64,000 bases of DNA from Alphaproteobacteria bacterium (lineage in GTDB: Bacteria; Pseudomonadota; Alphaproteobacteria; SHVP01). The stretch spans positions 1-64,000 of the forward strand of contig VGES01000019.1 in assembly GCA_016869765.1 (NCBI GenBank). Direction: 5' to 3'. Position 1 is the stretch's first letter, and each line of letters starts with the position of its first letter. The notes beneath the pieces are model-generated. The model made no database searches, was not told where the DNA came from, and saw only the letters and a list, made by a program, of their open reading frames with translations. Positions 17,321 to 25,975 of the stretch are shown in pieces. Made by a program: the position numbers and the translations under genes.

Positions 17321-18112
17321 TCACGGACGGACGCGCAACTGTTCGTGCAGGAACGCGATTACGCGATCGCGGGCCAGCGCTGTCGGGTGCCCGGCCGCAT
17401 CAACCAGGTCGTGGGTCAATGTGCAATGGGCCTTTCGGCCTGGACGCCGTCCCGAGGACGACGGGATCTCGATGGCCTCGAGGCGATCACCGAACTCCTC
17501 GCGCAGGCGGACCATGCGCTCGGCCGGGCAAAGTGGGTCGTCGGAAAAGCGCAGCGCCAGGAGTCGGATGTCGTCCTCGGCGCTGCGGCGTTTGGCTATC
17601 GCGAGTTGTTCGGGTGAAACGTGGAGCGCCCGCCGCCGCGCAGCCCCGATCGGGACGGGCAGGGAGGGCTGCGCCAGGACCGGGGCGAGCAAGTGAGGAT
17701 CGGCCATCAAGGCGAGCGCGAAATTGCCGGTCAGGCACATCCCGACCGCCCCGATGCCAGGTCCGCCGACCTCGGCACGAAGAGCACGGCCGAGCGCGCG
17801 CAACCATTCCGTGACCGGGCTGGCGCGGTGGGCGGCGAGCACGGCGAACTCGCGGCTGATACAGGCGCGGGCGAACTGGCCGAGCGCGTACGACCCGGTC
17901 AGCGGGCGCCCGGGCGTGCCGAACAAGCTCGGCATCGCCACGGTGAACCCGGCATCGGCGACCCAGGTCGCGAAGCGGGCGACTTCCGGGGCGATACCGG
18001 GGATTTCGTGGATGACGATCACGCCCGGCCCCGAACCCCGTCGGTAGACTGGGCGCGATCGATGTCCATCGCTGAAGCAGGTCAGCGAAAAGCCGGCCAA
18101 TGCGGGAACCAC
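17321..18112 (-). CDS. Dienelactone hydrolase family protein
   Basis: A 263-residue alpha/beta hydrolase of the dienelactone hydrolase type. The nucleophile is a cysteine in GMCLTGNF (Cys126), as in true DLH, although the usual GxCxGG ends in Asn. The acidic gatekeeper is HEIPGI (Glu36), and a late region with SDDPLCP and KAHCTLTH holds candidate Asp and His. The annotated start may be too long: GVIVIHEIPG usually begins within 30 residues, as it does here. DLH hydrolyses cyclic dienelactones in chloroaromatic catabolism, but many homologues serve other esters; no catabolic neighbours are present. A terminator-bearing candidate RNA ends about 57 bases upstream of its start. Confidence 0.78.
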   Translation of the reverse strand: MVPALAGFSLTCFSDGHRSRPVYRRGSGPGVIVIHEIPGIAPEVARFATWVADAGFTVAMPSLFGTPGRPLTGSYALGQFARACISREFAVLAAHRASPVTEWLRALGRALRAEVGGPGIGAVGMCLTGNFALALMADPHLLAPVLAQPSLPVPIGAARRRALHVSPEQLAIAKRRSAEDDIRLLALRFSDDPLCPAERMVRLREEFGDRLEAIEIPSSSGRRPGRKAHCTLTHDLVDAAGHPTALARDRVIAFLHEQLRVRP

Positions 18113-18168
18113 GGCCGGGACTTAAGCCCGGCGACCGGCACTGGGCAACCCGGGGCAACGGTGGAGCG

Positions 18169-18195
18169 AAAAAAAGCCGGGCCCGAAGGCCCGGC
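18169..18195 (-). terminator. Rho-independent terminator of the candidate RNA
   Basis: On the minus strand GCCGGGCC-TTCG-GGCCCGGC forms a perfect 8-bp stem with a UUCG tetraloop (18195-18176), followed at once by seven T (18175-18169). On the plus strand no T run follows, so the signal is directional. No protein gene lies just upstream on this strand, which is why a small RNA is proposed. Confidence 0.92.
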
Positions 18196-18300
18196 AGTGC
18201 TACAGGGAGGCTTTACGTCTGGGAGACGTAAGGTCGCCGGGTCAAGGGTGGCTCGGCGACCGTGACCTGGACTGTTCGGTGCGAACGGCCCAGAGTTGCC
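18169..18300 (-). ncRNA. Candidate structured small RNA with four hairpins
   Basis: Reading the minus strand from about 18300 to 18169 gives four consecutive hairpins. The first, 18267-18293, is 11 pairs with one mismatch and one G-U that pairs only on this strand. The second, 18232-18261, has an 8-bp perfect stem and a 14-base loop. The third, 18213-18231, is an 8-bp perfect stem around CCC. A single-stranded AGCCTCCCTGTAGC follows, then a terminator. A TAATAA-like -10 lies at 18309-18304 with only a weak -35. CCUCCC-type segments occur in several alphaproteobacterial antisense sRNAs, so a trans-acting RNA is likely. An attenuating leader for the DLH gene is the alternative. No family is assigned. 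Confidence 0.72.
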
Positions 18301-18486
18301 CAATTATTAAGGACGCCGATCCGGTCGCAGAACGCCTGTTAACCTCAAGTCAGGCATGCAAATTTCGCATGGCTCATGGTGCGGGCCGGGTTTGCCTCCA
18401 GTCCGTCGCTTTCCTGCCACGGCACGGCCTTGGCCCCCCTCTATCGATGATTCCCGTTGACGACGGGTTGAAGACGGGGGAAACCC

Positions 18487-20172
18487 ATGGCGGCACACGA
18501 ACCCGTGAAGAGCGGGGAGGACGCGGTGGCACAGGTTGGGGAGCGGCAGGCGGTGGTCGTTCGGACCTTCGAGAGTCCGTCTTGGCCCTTCGACCATCTC
18601 GCGTTCGCGGCCATCGTCCTGATCCTCGCGATCGCCGGCGCCACGTTCGCCGACTATGGCGTGAGTTGGGACGAAGGCGAACATCAGGCTTACGGCGAAA
18701 CGGTCTTCCAGTATTACGCGACGTGGTTCGAGGAGCGGGCGGCCGTCGAGTGGAAGCCACTCTATCAGTACGGAGCGGCGTTCGACCTGACGGCGGTGCT
18801 GCTGCAGTTCGTGCTGCCCTTCGAGCCTTATCACACCCGGCACCTGCTGAACGTCCTCATTGGCGTCGTCGGGCTGTTCGGTTGTTGGCGCCTGGCCCGG
18901 CTCGTCGGTGGTCCGCGGGCCGGCCTGATCGCCGTCCTGTTGCTTGCCGCGACGCCCAATTTCTATGGCCACATGTTCAACAACCCGAAGGACATCCCCT
19001 TCGCGGTCGGCACCGTCTGGTCGCTGTATTTCATGGTGCAGTTGCTGCGCGTCCTGCCCCGCCCGCCGGGGTCGCTGGTCGTCAAGCTGGGAGTGGTGAT
19101 CGGCTTGACGCTGGGCGTTCGCATCGGCGGCCTGCTGCTGCTCGGGTATCTCGGCCTGGCGCTGGGCGGCTGGCTCCTGTTTCTCTCCCCGCGCCGGCAT
19201 CCGACCGACCTGATCCGTCATGGCGCGTTGGTCGCGGTCCGCGTCGTGGTTCCGGTGGTCGTGATCGCCTACGGGATCATGTTGGCCTATTGGCCCTGGG
19301 CGCAGCAGGAACCGTTCACCAATCCGTTGCGCGCCCTCACCGAATTTTCACACCACGCGTTTCCGTACAAAGTTCTGTTCTTCGGCGACTACATCGCCGC
19401 CGATCAGTTGCCGTGGTCCTACCTGCCGCTCCACTTCGTCCTGAAGCTGCCCGAATTGAGCGTGCTCGCGCTCCTGCTGGGTGGACCTTGGGCTGTGCTC
19501 TACTACTGGCGACGGCAACGCTGGGGCAGTCTCGCCCAGGTGTTGCCGATCGGCCTGATTCTGTTTGCCGCGCTGTTCCCGCTGCTCTACGCCATGGCCA
19601 TCAAGGCGATCGTATTCAATGGCATGCGGCATTTCCTGTTCGTCGTGCCGCCCCTGTGCATGATCGCGGCCCTGACCATCGATGGCGCGCTCGATCGGCT
19701 GAAGCAGGTGCGCTGGCGCGGCGCCATCGGCACGGCGGTCGCCGCCTACGTCGCTTGGCACGTGCAGACGATGGTGGCGCTTCACCCCTACCAATACGTC
19801 TACTACAACGAATTCGTCGGTGGCCTCGATGGGGCGGTGGGTGAACTCGAGACCGACTATTGGGCGAACACCTACGCCGAAGCGGTCGAGGAACTGGTGG
19901 GCTACCTGTCGGCGGCTTACGGCGAAAACTTCGAAAAGCGGAAGTTCCGCATTGCCGTGTGCGGACCACCGACATCGGCAACGGCCAATTTTCCGAACAA
20001 CTTCGAGTGGGTCAAAGATGTTGGCGAAGCGGATTACTTCATCGCCTTCACCAAGGACAACTGTAACGAGTTGATCGAGGGTCGCGATGTCGTCCGGGTC
20101 GAGCGTTTGGACGTGGTCCTTGCCGTGGTCAAGGACTGCAAGGTCGCGCGCCACGCCCTGATTCCGCAGTAG
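18487..20172 (+). CDS. Polytopic GT-C type glycosyltransferase (ArnT/PMT-like)
   Basis: A 561-residue membrane protein with an N-terminal cytosolic tail of about 35 residues, then some ten hydrophobic helices. The first extracytoplasmic loop carries VSWDEGEH (Asp62-Glu63), the acidic motif of GT-C transferases that use polyprenyl-phosphate sugars. It also has a Asn-rich loop NFYGHMFNNPKD and a soluble C-terminal domain of about 130 residues. It would transfer a sugar to a lipid or glycan on the periplasmic face. The methyltransferase gene begins eight bases after its stop, and a GT2 of the polyprenyl-phosphate sugar synthase type follows, which could make its donor. Acceptor unknown. Confidence 0.8.
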   Translation: MAAHEPVKSGEDAVAQVGERQAVVVRTFESPSWPFDHLAFAAIVLILAIAGATFADYGVSWDEGEHQAYGETVFQYYATWFEERAAVEWKPLYQYGAAFDLTAVLLQFVLPFEPYHTRHLLNVLIGVVGLFGCWRLARLVGGPRAGLIAVLLLAATPNFYGHMFNNPKDIPFAVGTVWSLYFMVQLLRVLPRPPGSLVVKLGVVIGLTLGVRIGGLLLLGYLGLALGGWLLFLSPRRHPTDLIRHGALVAVRVVVPVVVIAYGIMLAYWPWAQQEPFTNPLRALTEFSHHAFPYKVLFFGDYIAADQLPWSYLPLHFVLKLPELSVLALLLGGPWAVLYYWRRQRWGSLAQVLPIGLILFAALFPLLYAMAIKAIVFNGMRHFLFVVPPLCMIAALTIDGALDRLKQVRWRGAIGTAVAAYVAWHVQTMVALHPYQYVYYNEFVGGLDGAVGELETDYWANTYAEAVEELVGYLSAAYGENFEKRKFRIAVCGPPTSATANFPNNFEWVKDVGEADYFIAFTKDNCNELIEGRDVVRVERLDVVLAVVKDCKVARHALIPQ

Positions 20173-20180
20173 GCCGGGTC

Positions 20181-20903
20181 ATGCAGGCCTCGGAGTACGC
20201 GCGGATGCACGCGGTCGAAGACCGCATGTGGTGGTACCGTGGACTACACCGCATCCTCTTGGCGTCGCTGAGTGGTCCGTCACTGCATCGGGTGCTGGAC
20301 GCCGGGTGTGGCACTGGCGGGCTGTTGCGCCGGCTCCGGGAGTATCGGCCGGAATTGGCCGCGGTCGGCCTGGATGCCGATGCCACCGCCGCTGGGCTCG
20401 CCAGCGCCAAGGCAGGTCGACCGGTGACGGCGGCATCGATCAACGCATTGCCGTTTCCGGCCGAGTCCTTCGATGCCGTGGTGAGCGCGGACGTCCTCAG
20501 CCACGACCTCGTCGACCTCGACGCTGCGTTGGCCGAGATCCATCGCTGCCTCCGACCGCGCGGGCGCGTCGTTCTCAACCTGCCGGCCTACCGTTGGATG
20601 CTGTCGGCGCACGATCACGTCACGCACCAGTCGCGGCGCTTCACGGCGGCTGACGCGGTCGCCATGCTGCGGGCCGCGGGGTTCCGGGACATACGCAGTG
20701 GCTACTGGAACACGATCCTGTTCCCCATGATGGTCCTCCGCCGCAAGCTGTTCCCACCCAGGAACGGGAGCGACGTTGCCCTGTTCCCGGGCCCGATAGA
20801 CTGGTTGTTCTCCCGTATCGTGCTTGCCGAAGCTGCGCTGATCCGGATCGGGGTGCGGTGGCCCTTCGGGGGATCCGTCCTGGTGATCGGGGTCAAGCCG
20901 TGA
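20181..20903 (+). CDS. Class I SAM-dependent methyltransferase
   Basis: A 240-residue methyltransferase with the SAM-binding motif VLDAGCGTGGLLRRL (about 38-52), the acidic motif II (GLDADATAA) and a motif IV region SADVLSHDLVDLDAAL. The sequence opens with HAVEDRMWWYRGLHR, a start common in methyltransferases of glycan clusters (Methyltransf_11 type). The C-terminal half has a hydrophobic patch (YWNTILFPMMVLRR) that may touch the membrane. It lies between the GT-C and GT2 genes, and its TGA overlaps the next GTG start as GTGA. Substrate is probably a lipid-linked sugar or polyprenyl intermediate; this is inferred from context. Confidence 0.82.
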   Translation: MQASEYARMHAVEDRMWWYRGLHRILLASLSGPSLHRVLDAGCGTGGLLRRLREYRPELAAVGLDADATAAGLASAKAGRPVTAASINALPFPAESFDAVVSADVLSHDLVDLDAALAEIHRCLRPRGRVVLNLPAYRWMLSAHDHVTHQSRRFTAADAVAMLRAAGFRDIRSGYWNTILFPMMVLRRKLFPPRNGSDVALFPGPIDWLFSRIVLAEAALIRIGVRWPFGGSVLVIGVKP

Positions 20904-21868
20904 GCCGTCCGTTCGGGCTGTCGATCGTGATTCCGGTCTACAACGGAGCAGGCTCGATCGGTCGACTGGTGCAGGCCCTCGAAGGCCTCACCGTCGTCGG
21001 CGGCCACGAGATCGTGCTGGTCGTCGACGGAAGCCCCGACAACAGCGACGAGGTTTGTCGGCGCCTAGCCGCCGCAAGCCCGTTGCCGATCACCGTGATC
21101 AATCACGCACGCAACTACGGGGAACACAACGCCGTCATGACCGGCCTGCGTCACGCGCGCGGCGACTACATCATCAACATGGATGACGACCTGCAGAACC
21201 CGCCGAGCGAAGTGGTCAAGCTCTACGACCACGCGCGGCAGAGCGGGAAGGACGTCGTCTACACCTACTATCAGAAGAAGGAACACGCAGCGTGGCGCAA
21301 CCTCGGCAGTCGCTTCGCCAACTGGGTGGCCGACGTCTTGCTCGACAAGCCCAAGGGCCTCTACATGTCGAGCTTCCGCTGCATGAGCGCGTTCGTCGCC
21401 GAGCAGGTCACGCGTTATAGCGGCCCCTTTCCCCACATCGACGGCCTCATCTTCCAGGTGACCAATTCGATCGATCGGATCGAGGTCGATCATCTGCCGC
21501 GCGCCGACGGTCGCAGCAACTACACGCTGCGCCGGCTGATCAACCTCTGGCTCAGCATTCTGCTCAACTTCTCCGGCGTACCGTTGCGGCTGGCGACGGT
21601 GGTCGGTGTCGCCTTGGGATTTGTCGGGCTGATCGGCCTGTTCGCGGTCCTGGTCGAGGTCGTGTTCTACGGCACGCCCGAGGGTTGGGCCTCGCTCATG
21701 GTGGTCGTGCTGTTTGTCGCCGGGATTCAACTCGTGCTGCTGGGCCTGATCGGCGAGTACCTGGGGCGCTTGTTTCTCACGGCCAACAACAAACCGCAGT
21801 CCGTCGTGCGCTCCGTCGTTCGCCGTGAGGATCTGCGCGACCGCCCGTCGCAGCGCGTCAACGGCTAG
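20900..21868 (+). CDS. GT2 family glycosyltransferase with C-terminal membrane helices (ArnC/GtrB-like)
   Basis: A 322-residue GT-A transferase with LSIVIPVYNGAGSI at the N-terminus, VLVVDGSPDNS for nucleotide binding, NMDDDLQNPP as the DXD-type metal site and two hydrophobic helices near the C-terminus (about 225-290). This is the architecture of polyprenyl-phosphate sugar synthases such as ArnC and GtrB. It would charge undecaprenyl phosphate on the cytoplasmic side and could feed the GT-C enzyme encoded two genes upstream. The start is GTG 20900 in a GTGA overlap with the methyltransferase; a longer in-frame form would begin inside that gene. Its 3' end overlaps the convergent DegT gene by 11 bases. 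Confidence 0.85.
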   Translation: MSRPFGLSIVIPVYNGAGSIGRLVQALEGLTVVGGHEIVLVVDGSPDNSDEVCRRLAAASPLPITVINHARNYGEHNAVMTGLRHARGDYIINMDDDLQNPPSEVVKLYDHARQSGKDVVYTYYQKKEHAAWRNLGSRFANWVADVLLDKPKGLYMSSFRCMSAFVAEQVTRYSGPFPHIDGLIFQVTNSIDRIEVDHLPRADGRSNYTLRRLINLWLSILLNFSGVPLRLATVVGVALGFVGLIGLFAVLVEVVFYGTPEGWASLMVVVLFVAGIQLVLLGLIGEYLGRLFLTANNKPQSVVRSVVRREDLRDRPSQRVNG

Positions 21869-22979
21869 GGCCGGCCGCGTGAACCGCGGCGATCACCTGT
21901 TTCACCGCGTCGCCCGGAAGTTGCGGATACATCGGCAAACTCAGAACCTGTTTCGCCAGCGGCTCGGTATGGCGCATCGCGGCTGGGCCCACGGCAATGC
22001 GGCCAGCGTAGGCCGGCTGGCGATGAACGGGCACGGGATAGTGCACGGCGGTGCCGATCCCGGCTGCCGCAAGTGCGGCGCGCAGGGACTCGCGACGCTC
22101 TGCTCGCACGACGTACTGGTGGAAGACGTGGGAGACTCCGGCGCGACGGGCTGGCGTCGCGAGCGGCGTCCCAGCCAGGCCAGCGTCATAGTGCGCCGCC
22201 AGGGCCTGACGACGTTGATTGTCGCGGGGTAGCGTCGCCAGTTTCACCCGCAGGATCGCCGCCTGGAGCTCGTCCAGTCGGCTGTTCTGGCCGGCCGTCG
22301 CGCTGACGTAGCGCTCACGCCAACCATATTCGCGGAGCTCCACGACGCGGCGCGCGAGCGCCTCGTCGTTGGTGATCACGGCGCCCCCATCGCCGAAGGC
22401 CCCGAGGTTCTTCGTCGGGTAGAAGCTGAAGCAGCCAACGTCGCCCAACGTTCCGACGGTGCGGCCGCCGATGGTCGCACCATGGGCCTGGGCGCAGTCC
22501 TCGATCACCCTGAGGCCGTAGTCGCGCGCGAACCCGAGGAGGTCGTCGATCCGTGCCGGGTGTCCATAGAGATGGACGGGAACGATCGCCTTGATCCGGG
22601 CTCCACGCTTGAGAACATCGGCGAGCTCGGCAACGTCGAGCGTGAAATCGACGGGGTCGACATCGAGCAACAGCGGGTGCGCGCCCACGAGCTCGATGGC
22701 CGCCACGGTCGCGACGGCCGTATGGGCGACGGTGGCCACCGTGTCGCCGGGACCGACATCCAACGCCCGCAATGCCAGCACCAGGGCGTCGGTCCCGCTG
22801 CCGACGCCGACGGCATGGCGCGCGCCGTTGAAGGCCGCGAACTCCTGCTCGAACCGTTTCACCTCGTCGCCCAGGATATAGCGGCCGGATTCGAGCGCGA
22901 CCTGGATGGCACGATCGATCGCACCCCGATGTTCGAGGTAACTGGCGCGCGGGTCGGTTTGGGGGATCGTGATCGGCAT
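21858..22979 (-). CDS. DegT/DnrJ/EryC1/StrS family sugar aminotransferase
   Basis: A 373-residue PLP-dependent aminotransferase for nucleotide-linked keto sugars. The PLP lysine is K190 in CFSFYPTKNLGAFGDGGA. The PLP-stacking and Asp positions lie in VIEDCAQAHGA (Asp161), and GVGSGTDALVLAL is the family's N-terminal phosphate motif. It resembles QdtB/FdtB-type 3-aminotransferases. The start ATG 22979 (MPITIPQTDP) was preferred over an upstream codon because it lies two bases after the epimerase stop and matches family length. The partner keto-sugar enzyme may be the adjacent epimerase; the exact sugar is not evident. Confidence 0.88.
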   Translation of the reverse strand: MPITIPQTDPRASYLEHRGAIDRAIQVALESGRYILGDEVKRFEQEFAAFNGARHAVGVGSGTDALVLALRALDVGPGDTVATVAHTAVATVAAIELVGAHPLLLDVDPVDFTLDVAELADVLKRGARIKAIVPVHLYGHPARIDDLLGFARDYGLRVIEDCAQAHGATIGGRTVGTLGDVGCFSFYPTKNLGAFGDGGAVITNDEALARRVVELREYGWRERYVSATAGQNSRLDELQAAILRVKLATLPRDNQRRQALAAHYDAGLAGTPLATPARRAGVSHVFHQYVVRAERRESLRAALAAAGIGTAVHYPVPVHRQPAYAGRIAVGPAAMRHTEPLAKQVLSLPMYPQLPGDAVKQVIAAVHAAGPSR

Positions 22980-22981
22980 CG

Positions 22982-23977
22982 CTAAACGTAGTGGCGCCAC
23001 GCCTCGCGGTAATAGACGATCGTGCGACGCAGCCCCTCGTTCAGGGGGACCGCCGGGGCCCAGCCCGTGGTGCGGCGGAACAGGCGGTCATCGGCGTAAT
23101 AGTCGCCGATGTCGATACGTTTGCGATCCGCCGGAAAGGCCTTCACCTCGAACGATCCGCCGGAGAGCTGCGCCAAGAGGCGGCCGACCTCGGCCAGGCT
23201 GAGCGGCGGGTCACCACCGATGTTGAATACCTGGCCGTCGGTCTCGGGCAAGGTGGCGGCGAGCAGGAGCGCCTGAACGGCGTCGTCGACGTAGGTAAAA
23301 TCGCGCAGCTGTTCGCCGCCCCAGACCTCGAACGGGCGCCCTTCGAGCACGGCCCGGATCCACACGCCGAGGAACGTCTGGCGCGCGTCCTTGATGCGCA
23401 TGCGCGGACCGTAGGTGTTGGTCAGGCGGAGTGCGGTGGCTCGCAGGCCGTACACGTTGTTGTAGAGAATGTGGTACCACTCGCCCGCCATCTTGTTGAT
23501 GCCGTTGACGTCGGTTGGTCGCAACGGATGTTTCTCATCGGCCGGCAGGTAGTCCGGCTTGCCGTAGATCTGGCGCGTCGAAGCGAACACGATCTTGGCC
23601 TTCGGCGCGTGCTGGCGGCAGGCCTCGAGCAGGCTGAGCTGGGCGGCGCAGTTGATCTCGAGGTCGACCTGCGGATTGGTCATCGAATCGAGGTGGCTGG
23701 TCTGCCCGGCCAGATTGAAGATCACGTCGAGGTCGCGCAGCAGGTAGGGCAGGGCGTGGCGGTCACGGATATCGGAGATGTTGACCCGCACGCGGCTCTC
23801 GATTCCGGCGATGTTGTGAGGATTTCCGCCGTATTCCGGCACCAGGGAATCGATCAGCGTCACCTCGGCGCCGAGCGCGACCAAACGGTGCGCGAGGGTC
23901 GAACCGATGAACCCGAGCCCGCCCGTGATCAACGTGCGCCGGCCGGCGAGCCCAGCCGGGCCCTGCGTGGGGACCAT
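22982..23977 (-). CDS. NAD-dependent epimerase/dehydratase (extended SDR) with altered active-site Tyr
   Basis: A 331-residue extended SDR with the Rossmann motif ITGGLGFIGS (about 17-26), VIFNLAGQTSHLDS and FASTRQIYG for the catalytic Thr/Ser region. The catalytic YxxxK would align with NGINK (158-162), so Asn158 stands where Tyr is expected while Lys162 is kept. Substrate-binding segments RLTNTYGPRMR and LRDFTYVDDAV are typical of nucleotide-sugar epimerases. It precedes the DegT aminotransferase gene by two bases and follows lysR by 12 bases. It may act on a UDP- or dTDP-sugar, but the Tyr change means epimerase activity should not be assumed. Confidence 0.82.
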   Translation of the reverse strand: MVPTQGPAGLAGRRTLITGGLGFIGSTLAHRLVALGAEVTLIDSLVPEYGGNPHNIAGIESRVRVNISDIRDRHALPYLLRDLDVIFNLAGQTSHLDSMTNPQVDLEINCAAQLSLLEACRQHAPKAKIVFASTRQIYGKPDYLPADEKHPLRPTDVNGINKMAGEWYHILYNNVYGLRATALRLTNTYGPRMRIKDARQTFLGVWIRAVLEGRPFEVWGGEQLRDFTYVDDAVQALLLAATLPETDGQVFNIGGDPPLSLAEVGRLLAQLSGGSFEVKAFPADRKRIDIGDYYADDRLFRRTTGWAPAVPLNEGLRRTIVYYREAWRHYV

Positions 23978-23989
23978 GGTCGGGCGCTC

Positions 23990-24892
23990 CTAGAACCGCC
24001 AGGCCGAAACTTTGGCCAGCAAAAAGTCCCGGAACGCCGCGATCTTCTTCGAATCGCGGAGCTCGTCCGGATAGACGAAATAGGCGTCGAACGACGGCCC
24101 GGAAATCTCGGGGATCACCTGCACCACCCTCGGATTGCTCTGTACGGTGTAGTCCGGCAATGCGGCAATTCCGAGGCCGCTTTCGACCGCCATCAACTGA
24201 CCGTGGACGTTGTTGACGTTGAGGACCGGGCGAATCTGCACCCCGGCGCGCTCCCCGATCTCGATCAGCCAGTTGACCTCGGGAACCGGTGAGTACGCAT
24301 CGTCGCCGTAAGCGATGATGCGATGGTGCGCGAGGTCGCGGACATCGGTGGGGCTCCCGTGCCGGCGCAGGTACTCCGACGAGGCATAGAGGTGGTTGTG
24401 TACCGTCAGGAGTTTTCGCTGCACCAGATCGCGCTGCGTCGAAGGACGCAGCCGGATCGCAATGTCAGCCTCGCCCATCGATAGGTCGAGGACGCGGTCC
24501 TCGAGCACGAGATCGACCGTGAGGTCGGGATAGAGCGCCAGGAACTCGCCGATCCGTGGCGTCAGCCACGTCGAGCCGAGGCCCACGGTGGTCGTGATCT
24601 TGAGCGACCCGGAAGGTTTCTGCCGCGTCTCGCCGAGCACGGCTTCGGCCATCGCGAGTTTGGCCGACACTTCGTGCGCCGTCCGGTACAGCGTTTCGCC
24701 TTGCTCGGTCAGTTTCAGGCCGCGGGCATGGCGGTGGAACAGCGGCACGCCCAGTTCGTCCTCGAGCGCGCTCACCTGCCGGCTGATCGCCGATTGGCTC
24801 AGGCTCAGCATCTCGCCCGCGCGCGTAAAGCTCCCGGCATCGGCCGCGGCGTGGAAGATCTTGAGCTTGTTCCAATCGATGGCCGAGGTCAT
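23990..24892 (-). CDS. LysR-family transcriptional regulator
   Basis: A 300-residue LysR-type regulator. The winged helix-turn-helix spans about residues 8-68 (LKIFHAAADAGSFTRAGEML, then SQSAISRQVSALEDELG). A periplasmic-binding-like effector domain follows, with GSLKITTTVGLGSTWL as the first strand of the sensing domain. It is cotranscribed with trxB (gap four bases) and with the downstream epimerase (gap 12 bases) rather than divergent from a target, which is less usual for LysR proteins. trxB-lysR neighbours recur in alphaproteobacteria from memory. The effector is not predictable; a thiol or redox link is only suggested by position. Confidence 0.9.
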   Translation of the reverse strand: MTSAIDWNKLKIFHAAADAGSFTRAGEMLSLSQSAISRQVSALEDELGVPLFHRHARGLKLTEQGETLYRTAHEVSAKLAMAEAVLGETRQKPSGSLKITTTVGLGSTWLTPRIGEFLALYPDLTVDLVLEDRVLDLSMGEADIAIRLRPSTQRDLVQRKLLTVHNHLYASSEYLRRHGSPTDVRDLAHHRIIAYGDDAYSPVPEVNWLIEIGERAGVQIRPVLNVNNVHGQLMAVESGLGIAALPDYTVQSNPRVVQVIPEISGPSFDAYFVYPDELRDSKKIAAFRDFLLAKVSAWRF

Positions 24893-24896
24893 CGCG

Positions 24897-25862
24897 TCAC
24901 TCGGCGGCTTGAGCGGCGAGCGGTTGCGCTGCCAGCCATTTCTCGGCCTCGAGCGCGGCCATGCAGCCGGTGCCGGCGGCAGTCACGGCTTGGCGGAAAA
25001 TCTTGTCCTGGACGTCGCCCGCCGCGAACACGCCCGGGACGTTGGTGCGCGTCGAACCCGGCTTGGTCGCGATATACCCGTCCTGGTCGACATCGACCTG
25101 GTCGCGAAACAGTTCGGTGTTCGGGGTATGGCCGATCGCCACGAACACGCCGTCGGTCGCAAGCTCGCTGTTCGCCCCCGTCTTGGTGTTGCGCAGGCGA
25201 ACACCCGTCACGGCCTTCGGCGAACCCGAGCCGAGAACCTCTTCGACCGCCGCGTTCCACACCACCGCGATCTTGGGATTCTTGAACAGACGCTCCTGAC
25301 CGATTTTCTCGGCCCGAAGCGAGTCGCGGCGGTGAACCAGAGTGACCTTGCTGGCGTGATGGGTCAGGTAGAGCGCTTCCTCGACGGCCGTGTTACCGCC
25401 GCCGACGACCACGACCTGCTTGCCGCGGAAGAAAAATCCGTCGCAGGTGGCGCAGGCGGAGACGCCGGCGCCCTTGAACGCATCCTCGCTCGGGAGCCCG
25501 AGCCACCGGGCCTGCGCCCCGGTCGCGACGATCAGGGCCTCGCCGGCGTAGGTGTCTCCCGAATCGCCGATGCAGCGAAATGGCGTCCGTGACAGGTCGA
25601 CCGAGGTGATGAGGTCGTTGTGCATGACCGTGCCAACGTGCTCGGCCTGCTTCTGCATCTGCTCCATCAGCCAGGGGCCCTGCACCACCTCGGCGAACCC
25701 GGGATAGTTCTCGACATCCGAGGTGATGGTCATCTGACCACCGGGTTGCATGCCATGCACGAGGATCGGCTTGAGCCCGGCTCGGGCCGCATAGATCGCG
25801 GCGGTCAGCCCGGCCGGGCCGGAGCCGAGGATGAGGACTTTGCTGCGGTGATTCTTGGACAT
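24897..25862 (-). CDS. trxB: Thioredoxin-disulfide reductase
   Basis: A 321-residue low-molecular-weight thioredoxin reductase that passes electrons from NADPH through FAD and a redox disulfide to thioredoxin. The FAD motif is ILGSGPAGLTAA (about 11-22) and the active-site pair is CATC (Cys137, Cys140). The NADPH motif VVGGGNTAVEEA follows, and the C-terminal FAD motif is GVFAAGDVQD. The start is ATG 25862 (MSKNHRSK), preceded by AGG; a 12-residue longer form starting at 25898 lacks a ribosome binding site. It appears to be the first gene of the trxB-lysR-epimerase-degT string, with a 113-base gap after the ELM1-like gene. Confidence 0.96.
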   Translation of the reverse strand: MSKNHRSKVLILGSGPAGLTAAIYAARAGLKPILVHGMQPGGQMTITSDVENYPGFAEVVQGPWLMEQMQKQAEHVGTVMHNDLITSVDLSRTPFRCIGDSGDTYAGEALIVATGAQARWLGLPSEDAFKGAGVSACATCDGFFFRGKQVVVVGGGNTAVEEALYLTHHASKVTLVHRRDSLRAEKIGQERLFKNPKIAVVWNAAVEEVLGSGSPKAVTGVRLRNTKTGANSELATDGVFVAIGHTPNTELFRDQVDVDQDGYIATKPGSTRTNVPGVFAAGDVQDKIFRQAVTAAGTGCMAALEAEKWLAAQPLAAQAAE

Positions 25863-25975
25863 GACGACCTGACCGGCGGAGCTATGTGTTGTTTGCATTG
25901 GTGGAGGCGCCGCCCCCCAACAATGGGGATGGCTGGGCTCCTATGCAAGCGGCGCACAGGACCCCTGCGGGATTT

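Follow-up and report, generated by a model that had tools for sequence, protein, structure and literature searches.

A small RNA gene of a widespread alphaproteobacterial group behind vtlR combines a SorX-like core with a probable AbcR-like circuit

The minus strand of a 64,000-nt stretch of alphaproteobacterial DNA (hereafter, the window) carries a real small RNA (sRNA) gene, in which a SorX-like core is embedded in a probable AbcR-like circuit. This sRNA is a member of a very widespread and unnamed group of alphaproteobacterial sRNAs encoded behind vtlR, and it is probably switched on by the LysR-type regulator VtlR. The VtlR-AbcR circuit of Rhizobiaceae and Brucella controls nutrient uptake, virulence and symbiosis, and the RNA described here is probably a stand-alone trans-acting sRNA of an AbcR-like kind, activated by VtlR, directed against Shine-Dalgarno sequences and silencing transporter mRNAs. 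Its structure, conservation, covariation and synteny, as well as the geometry of its operator and start, are shown by sequence analysis (Table 1).

Table 1. Position of the sRNA gene, its structural elements and its neighbours in the window
Feature	Positions	Strand	Remarks
AbcR/SorX-like sRNA gene, ~130 nt	18169..18298	-	Predicted start; end is the terminator; fold z -6.0
Hairpin 1 (5′ variable part)	18267..18295	-	11 pairs, one mismatch, one G-U
Hairpin 2 (5′ variable part)	18232..18261	-	8 bp
Hairpin 3, loop CCC, motif CUCCCA (= AbcR motif M1)	18213..18231	-	8 bp; all 6 modelled pairs covary (A1/A2 alignments)
Single-stranded C-rich AGCCTCCCTGTAGC / AGCCUCCCUGUAGC, conserved putative anti-Shine-Dalgarno seed	18199..18212	-	CCTCCCTGT invariant in alignment A1
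Intrinsic terminator, 8 G-C pairs, UUCG loop, seven T	18169..18195	-	All 8 pairs covary in A2
LysR/VtlR operator (predicted): ATGC-N7-GCAT (18370-18356) overlapping exact GCAT-N3-TG-N3-T (18359-18347)	18347..18370	-	
Probable -10 region, TTAATAAT	18303..18310	-	Class-wide -10 position, +58 to +65 from box
vtlR/lsrB orthologue, LysR regulator	23990..24892	-	No cysteine
trxB, thioredoxin reductase	24897..25898	-	Directly upstream of vtlR in 62/71 relatives' loci
Sugar-gene cassette between vtlR and sRNA	18487..23977		Glycosyltransferases, methyltransferase, aminotransferase, epimerase, named from sequences
Dienelactone-hydrolase-like gene	17321..18112	-	57 nt beyond terminator

A sequence-only reading of the window had proposed four hairpins at this place (one stem of 11 bp with a mismatch and three of 8 bp), as well as an unpaired C-rich stretch and a terminator with a UUCG loop and seven T, and all these elements are present on the minus strand. 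The segment 18169-18298 folds at -60.1 kcal/mol, compared with -40.9 (sd 3.2) for its dinucleotide shuffles (z -6.0), none of 200 shuffles being as stable. The plus strand of the segment folds equally well, so that fold energy alone cannot assign the strand; the minus orientation, correctly proposed in that reading, follows from the T-run, from the presence of a LysR box and a -10, and from the strand on which the relatives are encoded. The statement that no protein gene precedes the terminator stands for the region directly upstream on the minus strand, but vtlR is found on that same strand 5.76 kb upstream. As for a small ORF inside the sRNA, the frames are largely open, but the 5′ half has no sequence conservation and coding is not favoured.

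DNA searches of 40 related genomes revealed a common core, (A)CGUCUCCCAGACGU-GAAGCCUCCCUGU-nnAACU plus the terminator, with sequence-variable hairpins in front of it. From 15 cores we built a covariance model (R1), which describes a 68-nt core with a CUCCCA-loop hairpin, AGCCUCCCUGU and the terminator and matches the window at 18169-18233 with 78 bits. Conserved and covarying stems in relatives were what the sequence-only reading had demanded of a true structured RNA, and this is what the relatives show: R1 finds the core in 153 of 289 sampled Alphaproteobacteria genomes, spread over the class, and all 14 modelled core pairs have two-sided changes, 97.8% of the cells being paired in an alignment of 96 cores (A2). 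The covariation score of these 96 cores reaches 0.52, against 0.13 when shuffled and at most 0.10 when slid; as the alignment had been fitted to the structure, the score is biased in its favour. However, in a second alignment, made without the structure (A1), hairpin 3 already has compensatory changes from C-G to U-A. Among other genera, an exact-pattern scan detected the core in Azospirillum, Roseomonas, Thalassospira, Reyranella, Kiloniella, Inquilinus, Nisaea and Magnetovibrio.

The 5′ part of the sRNA has kept its structure and not its sequence. In 62 relatives with the LysR box, a median of 83 nt separates the predicted start from the core; this stretch folds with a mean z of -3.1 versus shuffles and contains at least one hairpin in 61 of them and at least two in 53. 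Some genomes have several copies of the core. The genome studied here (G000) has a second, diverged copy (30 bits, seed ACCUCCCUGAAC; L244 1501-1573, or G000:C99:6656-6728, minus strand), while another DNA match, at G000:C97, corresponds to the terminator alone. Five to six copies occur in G231 and four in G241, and tandem arrays of two to three cores follow vtlR in G258 (L191) and G169 (L190).

At gathering thresholds, Rfam recognizes only a tRNA in the 64-kb window and nothing at the sRNA, so permissive thresholds were needed. Under these, the SorX model (RF02784) matches positions 18170-18238 with 39.1 bits (cut-off 46.6, E 4e-8), a similarity that spans hairpin 3, the CUCCCUGU seed and the terminator, followed by weak matches to SorY (RF02651; 24.5 bits, cut-off 111) and mmgR (RF00519, 'suhB'; 20.1 bits, cut-off 41). 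The RNA had been regarded as undescribed, and it is indeed unannotated and below every Rfam cut-off; however, it is related to SorX and mmgR and has a promoter and a neighbourhood of the AbcR type, and the Rfam comparison suggested at the time, with its subthreshold SorX match, does not bear out an orphan status. Among the papers searched, we found no publication on this sRNA outside Rhizobiales and Rhodobacter, a survey of A. brasilense sRNAs having been consulted by keyword. Next to one sRNA relative there is a sul1 riboswitch-like match just under the threshold (35.3 bits, cut-off 36.2; L011 1415-1467, minus strand).

With SorX as the best Rfam match, the sRNA could be plain SorX, that is, an RNA cut by RNase E from the 3′ UTR of an upstream mRNA and involved in oxidative stress. 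Both RNAs have the core hairpin and a CUCCCUGU seed placed between this hairpin and a U-tailed terminator, and true SorX is found by both models in two loci (L192, L193), where R1 scores 41-44 bits. SorX of Rhodobacter, however, is a 3′-UTR product of ompR-1 and is not vtlR-linked (PMC8625941, PMC6238624); an OmpR-type gene precedes the true SorX of L193, whereas in the window there is no sense gene directly upstream to read into the sRNA, which has a predicted promoter of its own, with LysR box and -10, and linkage to vtlR. Together with the score below the SorX cut-off, these differences make such an origin improbable.

The promoter region of the sRNA points instead to VtlR. The palindromic ATGC-N7-GCAT motif is a T-N11-A LysR box with a single occurrence in the 64-kb window, and the GCAT-N3-TG-N3-T motif overlapping it is the published VtlR/LsrB consensus (PMC7486931, PMC8844928). 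The first motif is present in 65 of 93 upstream regions of relatives, where 0.2 would be expected, and a conserved -10 (C.TA..T) is found in relatives at the distance given in Table 1. The LsrB-dependent promoter of S. meliloti AbcR1 has been proven (PMC8844928), and in the trxB-lsrB-abcR1 locus of this species a ATGCGCAAACGGCAT box precedes the 5′ end of the ar15 match by 72 nt. When this spacing from box to start is applied to the window, the sRNA would start at 18298 ± 3, next to TTAATAAT, which replaces the edge at 18310 proposed from sequence inspection.

The usual gene order in the relatives is trxB-vtlR-sRNA: a LysR gene occurs upstream of the core in most of those examined, often with trxB seen before it. 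VtlR was found in 171 of the 289 genomes. Among the 121 genomes with a listed core match, VtlR is on the same contig as the core in 96, and in 83 the core follows vtlR/lsrB on the same strand at a distance of 143-523 nt (median 218). In the window, a 5.5-kb sugar-gene cassette, which was not found in the relatives' loci, separates vtlR and trxB from the sRNA. Gaps of 1.7-5.6 kb between vtlR and the sRNA occur in about 10 other genomes, including a Tistrella mobilis plasmid, which suggests that this spot tolerates insertions.

Since vtlR is no longer adjacent, the sRNA might be one of the mmgR/SorY kind under a different activator, an idea that the weak matches to both families would fit. We consider it unlikely, given that the exact predicted operator is rightly placed and unique in 64 kb, and that the vtlR-sRNA synteny extends across the class. 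Less probable still is an attenuating, riboswitch-like leader of the dienelactone-hydrolase gene, an alternative offered in the sequence-only reading: a terminator does lie 57 nt upstream of this same-strand gene, and a dienelactone hydrolase also comes next in a second genome (G006), but these are the only two genomes in which it was found behind the core, relatives keep the core before other genes as the downstream genes turn over across the class, and the conserved part consists of the terminator and the anti-Shine-Dalgarno seed, with no antiterminator alternative seen in the predicted fold.

Under the preferred reading of a VtlR-activated sRNA, we infer that VtlR, whose gene lies ~5.8 kb upstream in the same orientation, would bind the two overlapping motifs, centred ~64 nt before the start, and would activate a sigma-70-type promoter. 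The ~130-nt transcript would then consist of the variable 5′ hairpins, the CUCCCA hairpin, the single-stranded AGCCUCCCUGU seed and the terminator. Its C-rich segments may pair with Shine-Dalgarno regions, chiefly those of mRNAs for the solute-binding proteins of transporters, and so would block translation as AbcR1 does; AbcR1 and AbcR2 repress transporter mRNAs by acting on ribosome-binding sites through motifs of the CUCCC type (PMC8844928, PMC5461406). Repression of ABC-transporter mRNAs by AbcR proceeds through base pairing, together with Hfq. A CCUCCC segment acting against Shine-Dalgarno sequences in a trans-acting sRNA had already been suggested, a putative role that the analysis supports.

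Candidate targets were sought in this genome as CAGGGAGG followed by a start codon; the 30 sites taken precede 21 different ORFs with a length of 100 aa or more. Nine of them encode solute-binding proteins (six SBP_bac_5, one DctP and two Peripla_BP_6), and the six SBP_bac_5 among 21 compare with 87 such genes in the genome, or 2.2% of its genes (p 5e-6, assuming ~3,900 genes). In G006, solute-binding proteins account for 6 of ~19 such ORFs, to which an oligopeptide-transporter ATPase is added; a short-chain dehydrogenase and a dienelactone-hydrolase homologue are common to both lists. Other strong Shine-Dalgarno sites (AAGGAGA), used as a control, precede solute-binding proteins in 3 of 17 cases, and the excess over this control is not significant for ORFs of at least 100 aa (9/21 v 3/17, Fisher p 0.09), the weaker value that we have taken; without the length limit the test gives p 0.04 (9/22 v 3/23). 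These figures are suggestive of solute-binding-protein mRNAs as the target class. The ~87 SBP_bac_5 proteins look many for a genome of 4 Mb.

Regarding the signal sensed by the regulator, cysteine is absent from the VtlR of this genome and from 85 of 129 VtlR sequences, and where the S. meliloti protein has its three cysteines, the residue is mostly V or I. The thiol switch of LsrB, described in Agrobacterium (PMC11975290), cannot thus be the general input, and the redox input of Rhizobiaceae LsrB cannot apply to the VtlR found here. Most VtlR proteins outside Rhizobiaceae are without the redox cysteines of LsrB. According to the same 2025 paper, LsrB occurs in Rhizobiales only (PMC11975290).

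These data allow a tentative evolutionary proposal, which we regard as plausible although slightly more doubtful than an even call, where a VtlR-driven, C-rich anti-Shine-Dalgarno sRNA would be an ancestral regulon of the Alphaproteobacteria. AbcR, SorX, SorY and mmgR would be its lineage-specific descendants, and the cysteine redox switch of LsrB would have appeared late, in Rhizobiaceae; if so, VtlR would sense something else in most of the class. The trxB-vtlR-sRNA module, with the operator geometry of AbcR, is widespread among the genomes sampled from the class, about half of which have the sRNA core, and its nearly invariant seed differs from that of AbcR. It connects sRNAs that have been filed apart (AbcR, SorX and mmgR), it mostly comes with VtlR proteins missing the known redox cysteines, and it offers operators and targets that can be tested in non-pathogenic species in culture.

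Compared with the known families, the sRNA is closer by sequence to SorX and mmgR than to AbcR (ar15, RF02345), and by Rfam threshold it is a member of none. The similarity to mmgR and SorY is a weak one over the CCUCCCUGU seed and the terminator, with scores far below the cut-offs; mmgR and ar15 belong to one Rfam clan, CL00108. No match of the ar15 model is listed for 18100-18500 at E<=5 (the clan-mate suhB is listed, with E 0.07), R1 has no match on three ar15 loci, and the pair of AbcR motifs of S. meliloti, searched as a pattern, gave 7 matches in 385 genomes. Seven VtlR-bearing loci without an R1 match (L207, L208, L213, L218, L220, L222 and L225) show by eye a LysR box followed by a C-rich hairpin/terminator segment; they are probably further seed variants, so that lineages seem to differ in their seed but to retain the VtlR circuit.

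It is in this circuit that the resemblance to AbcR1 and AbcR2 of Sinorhizobium, Agrobacterium and Brucella resides. Covariance models detect no similarity between the RNAs themselves; the M2 motif GUUCCC is absent here, with CCUCCCUGU / GCCUCCCUGU in its place, and the window sRNA has two extra 5′ hairpins. The trxB-vtlR/lsrB-sRNA locus is common to both, with the 5.5-kb insertion after vtlR in the present case, and so are the LysR box and its distance to the start, as seen in S. meliloti. Both also have CUCCCA (M1; PMC5461406) in a hairpin loop, although here the motif is mostly within the stem and the loop has just 3 nt, followed by a second C-rich single-stranded segment and a terminator.
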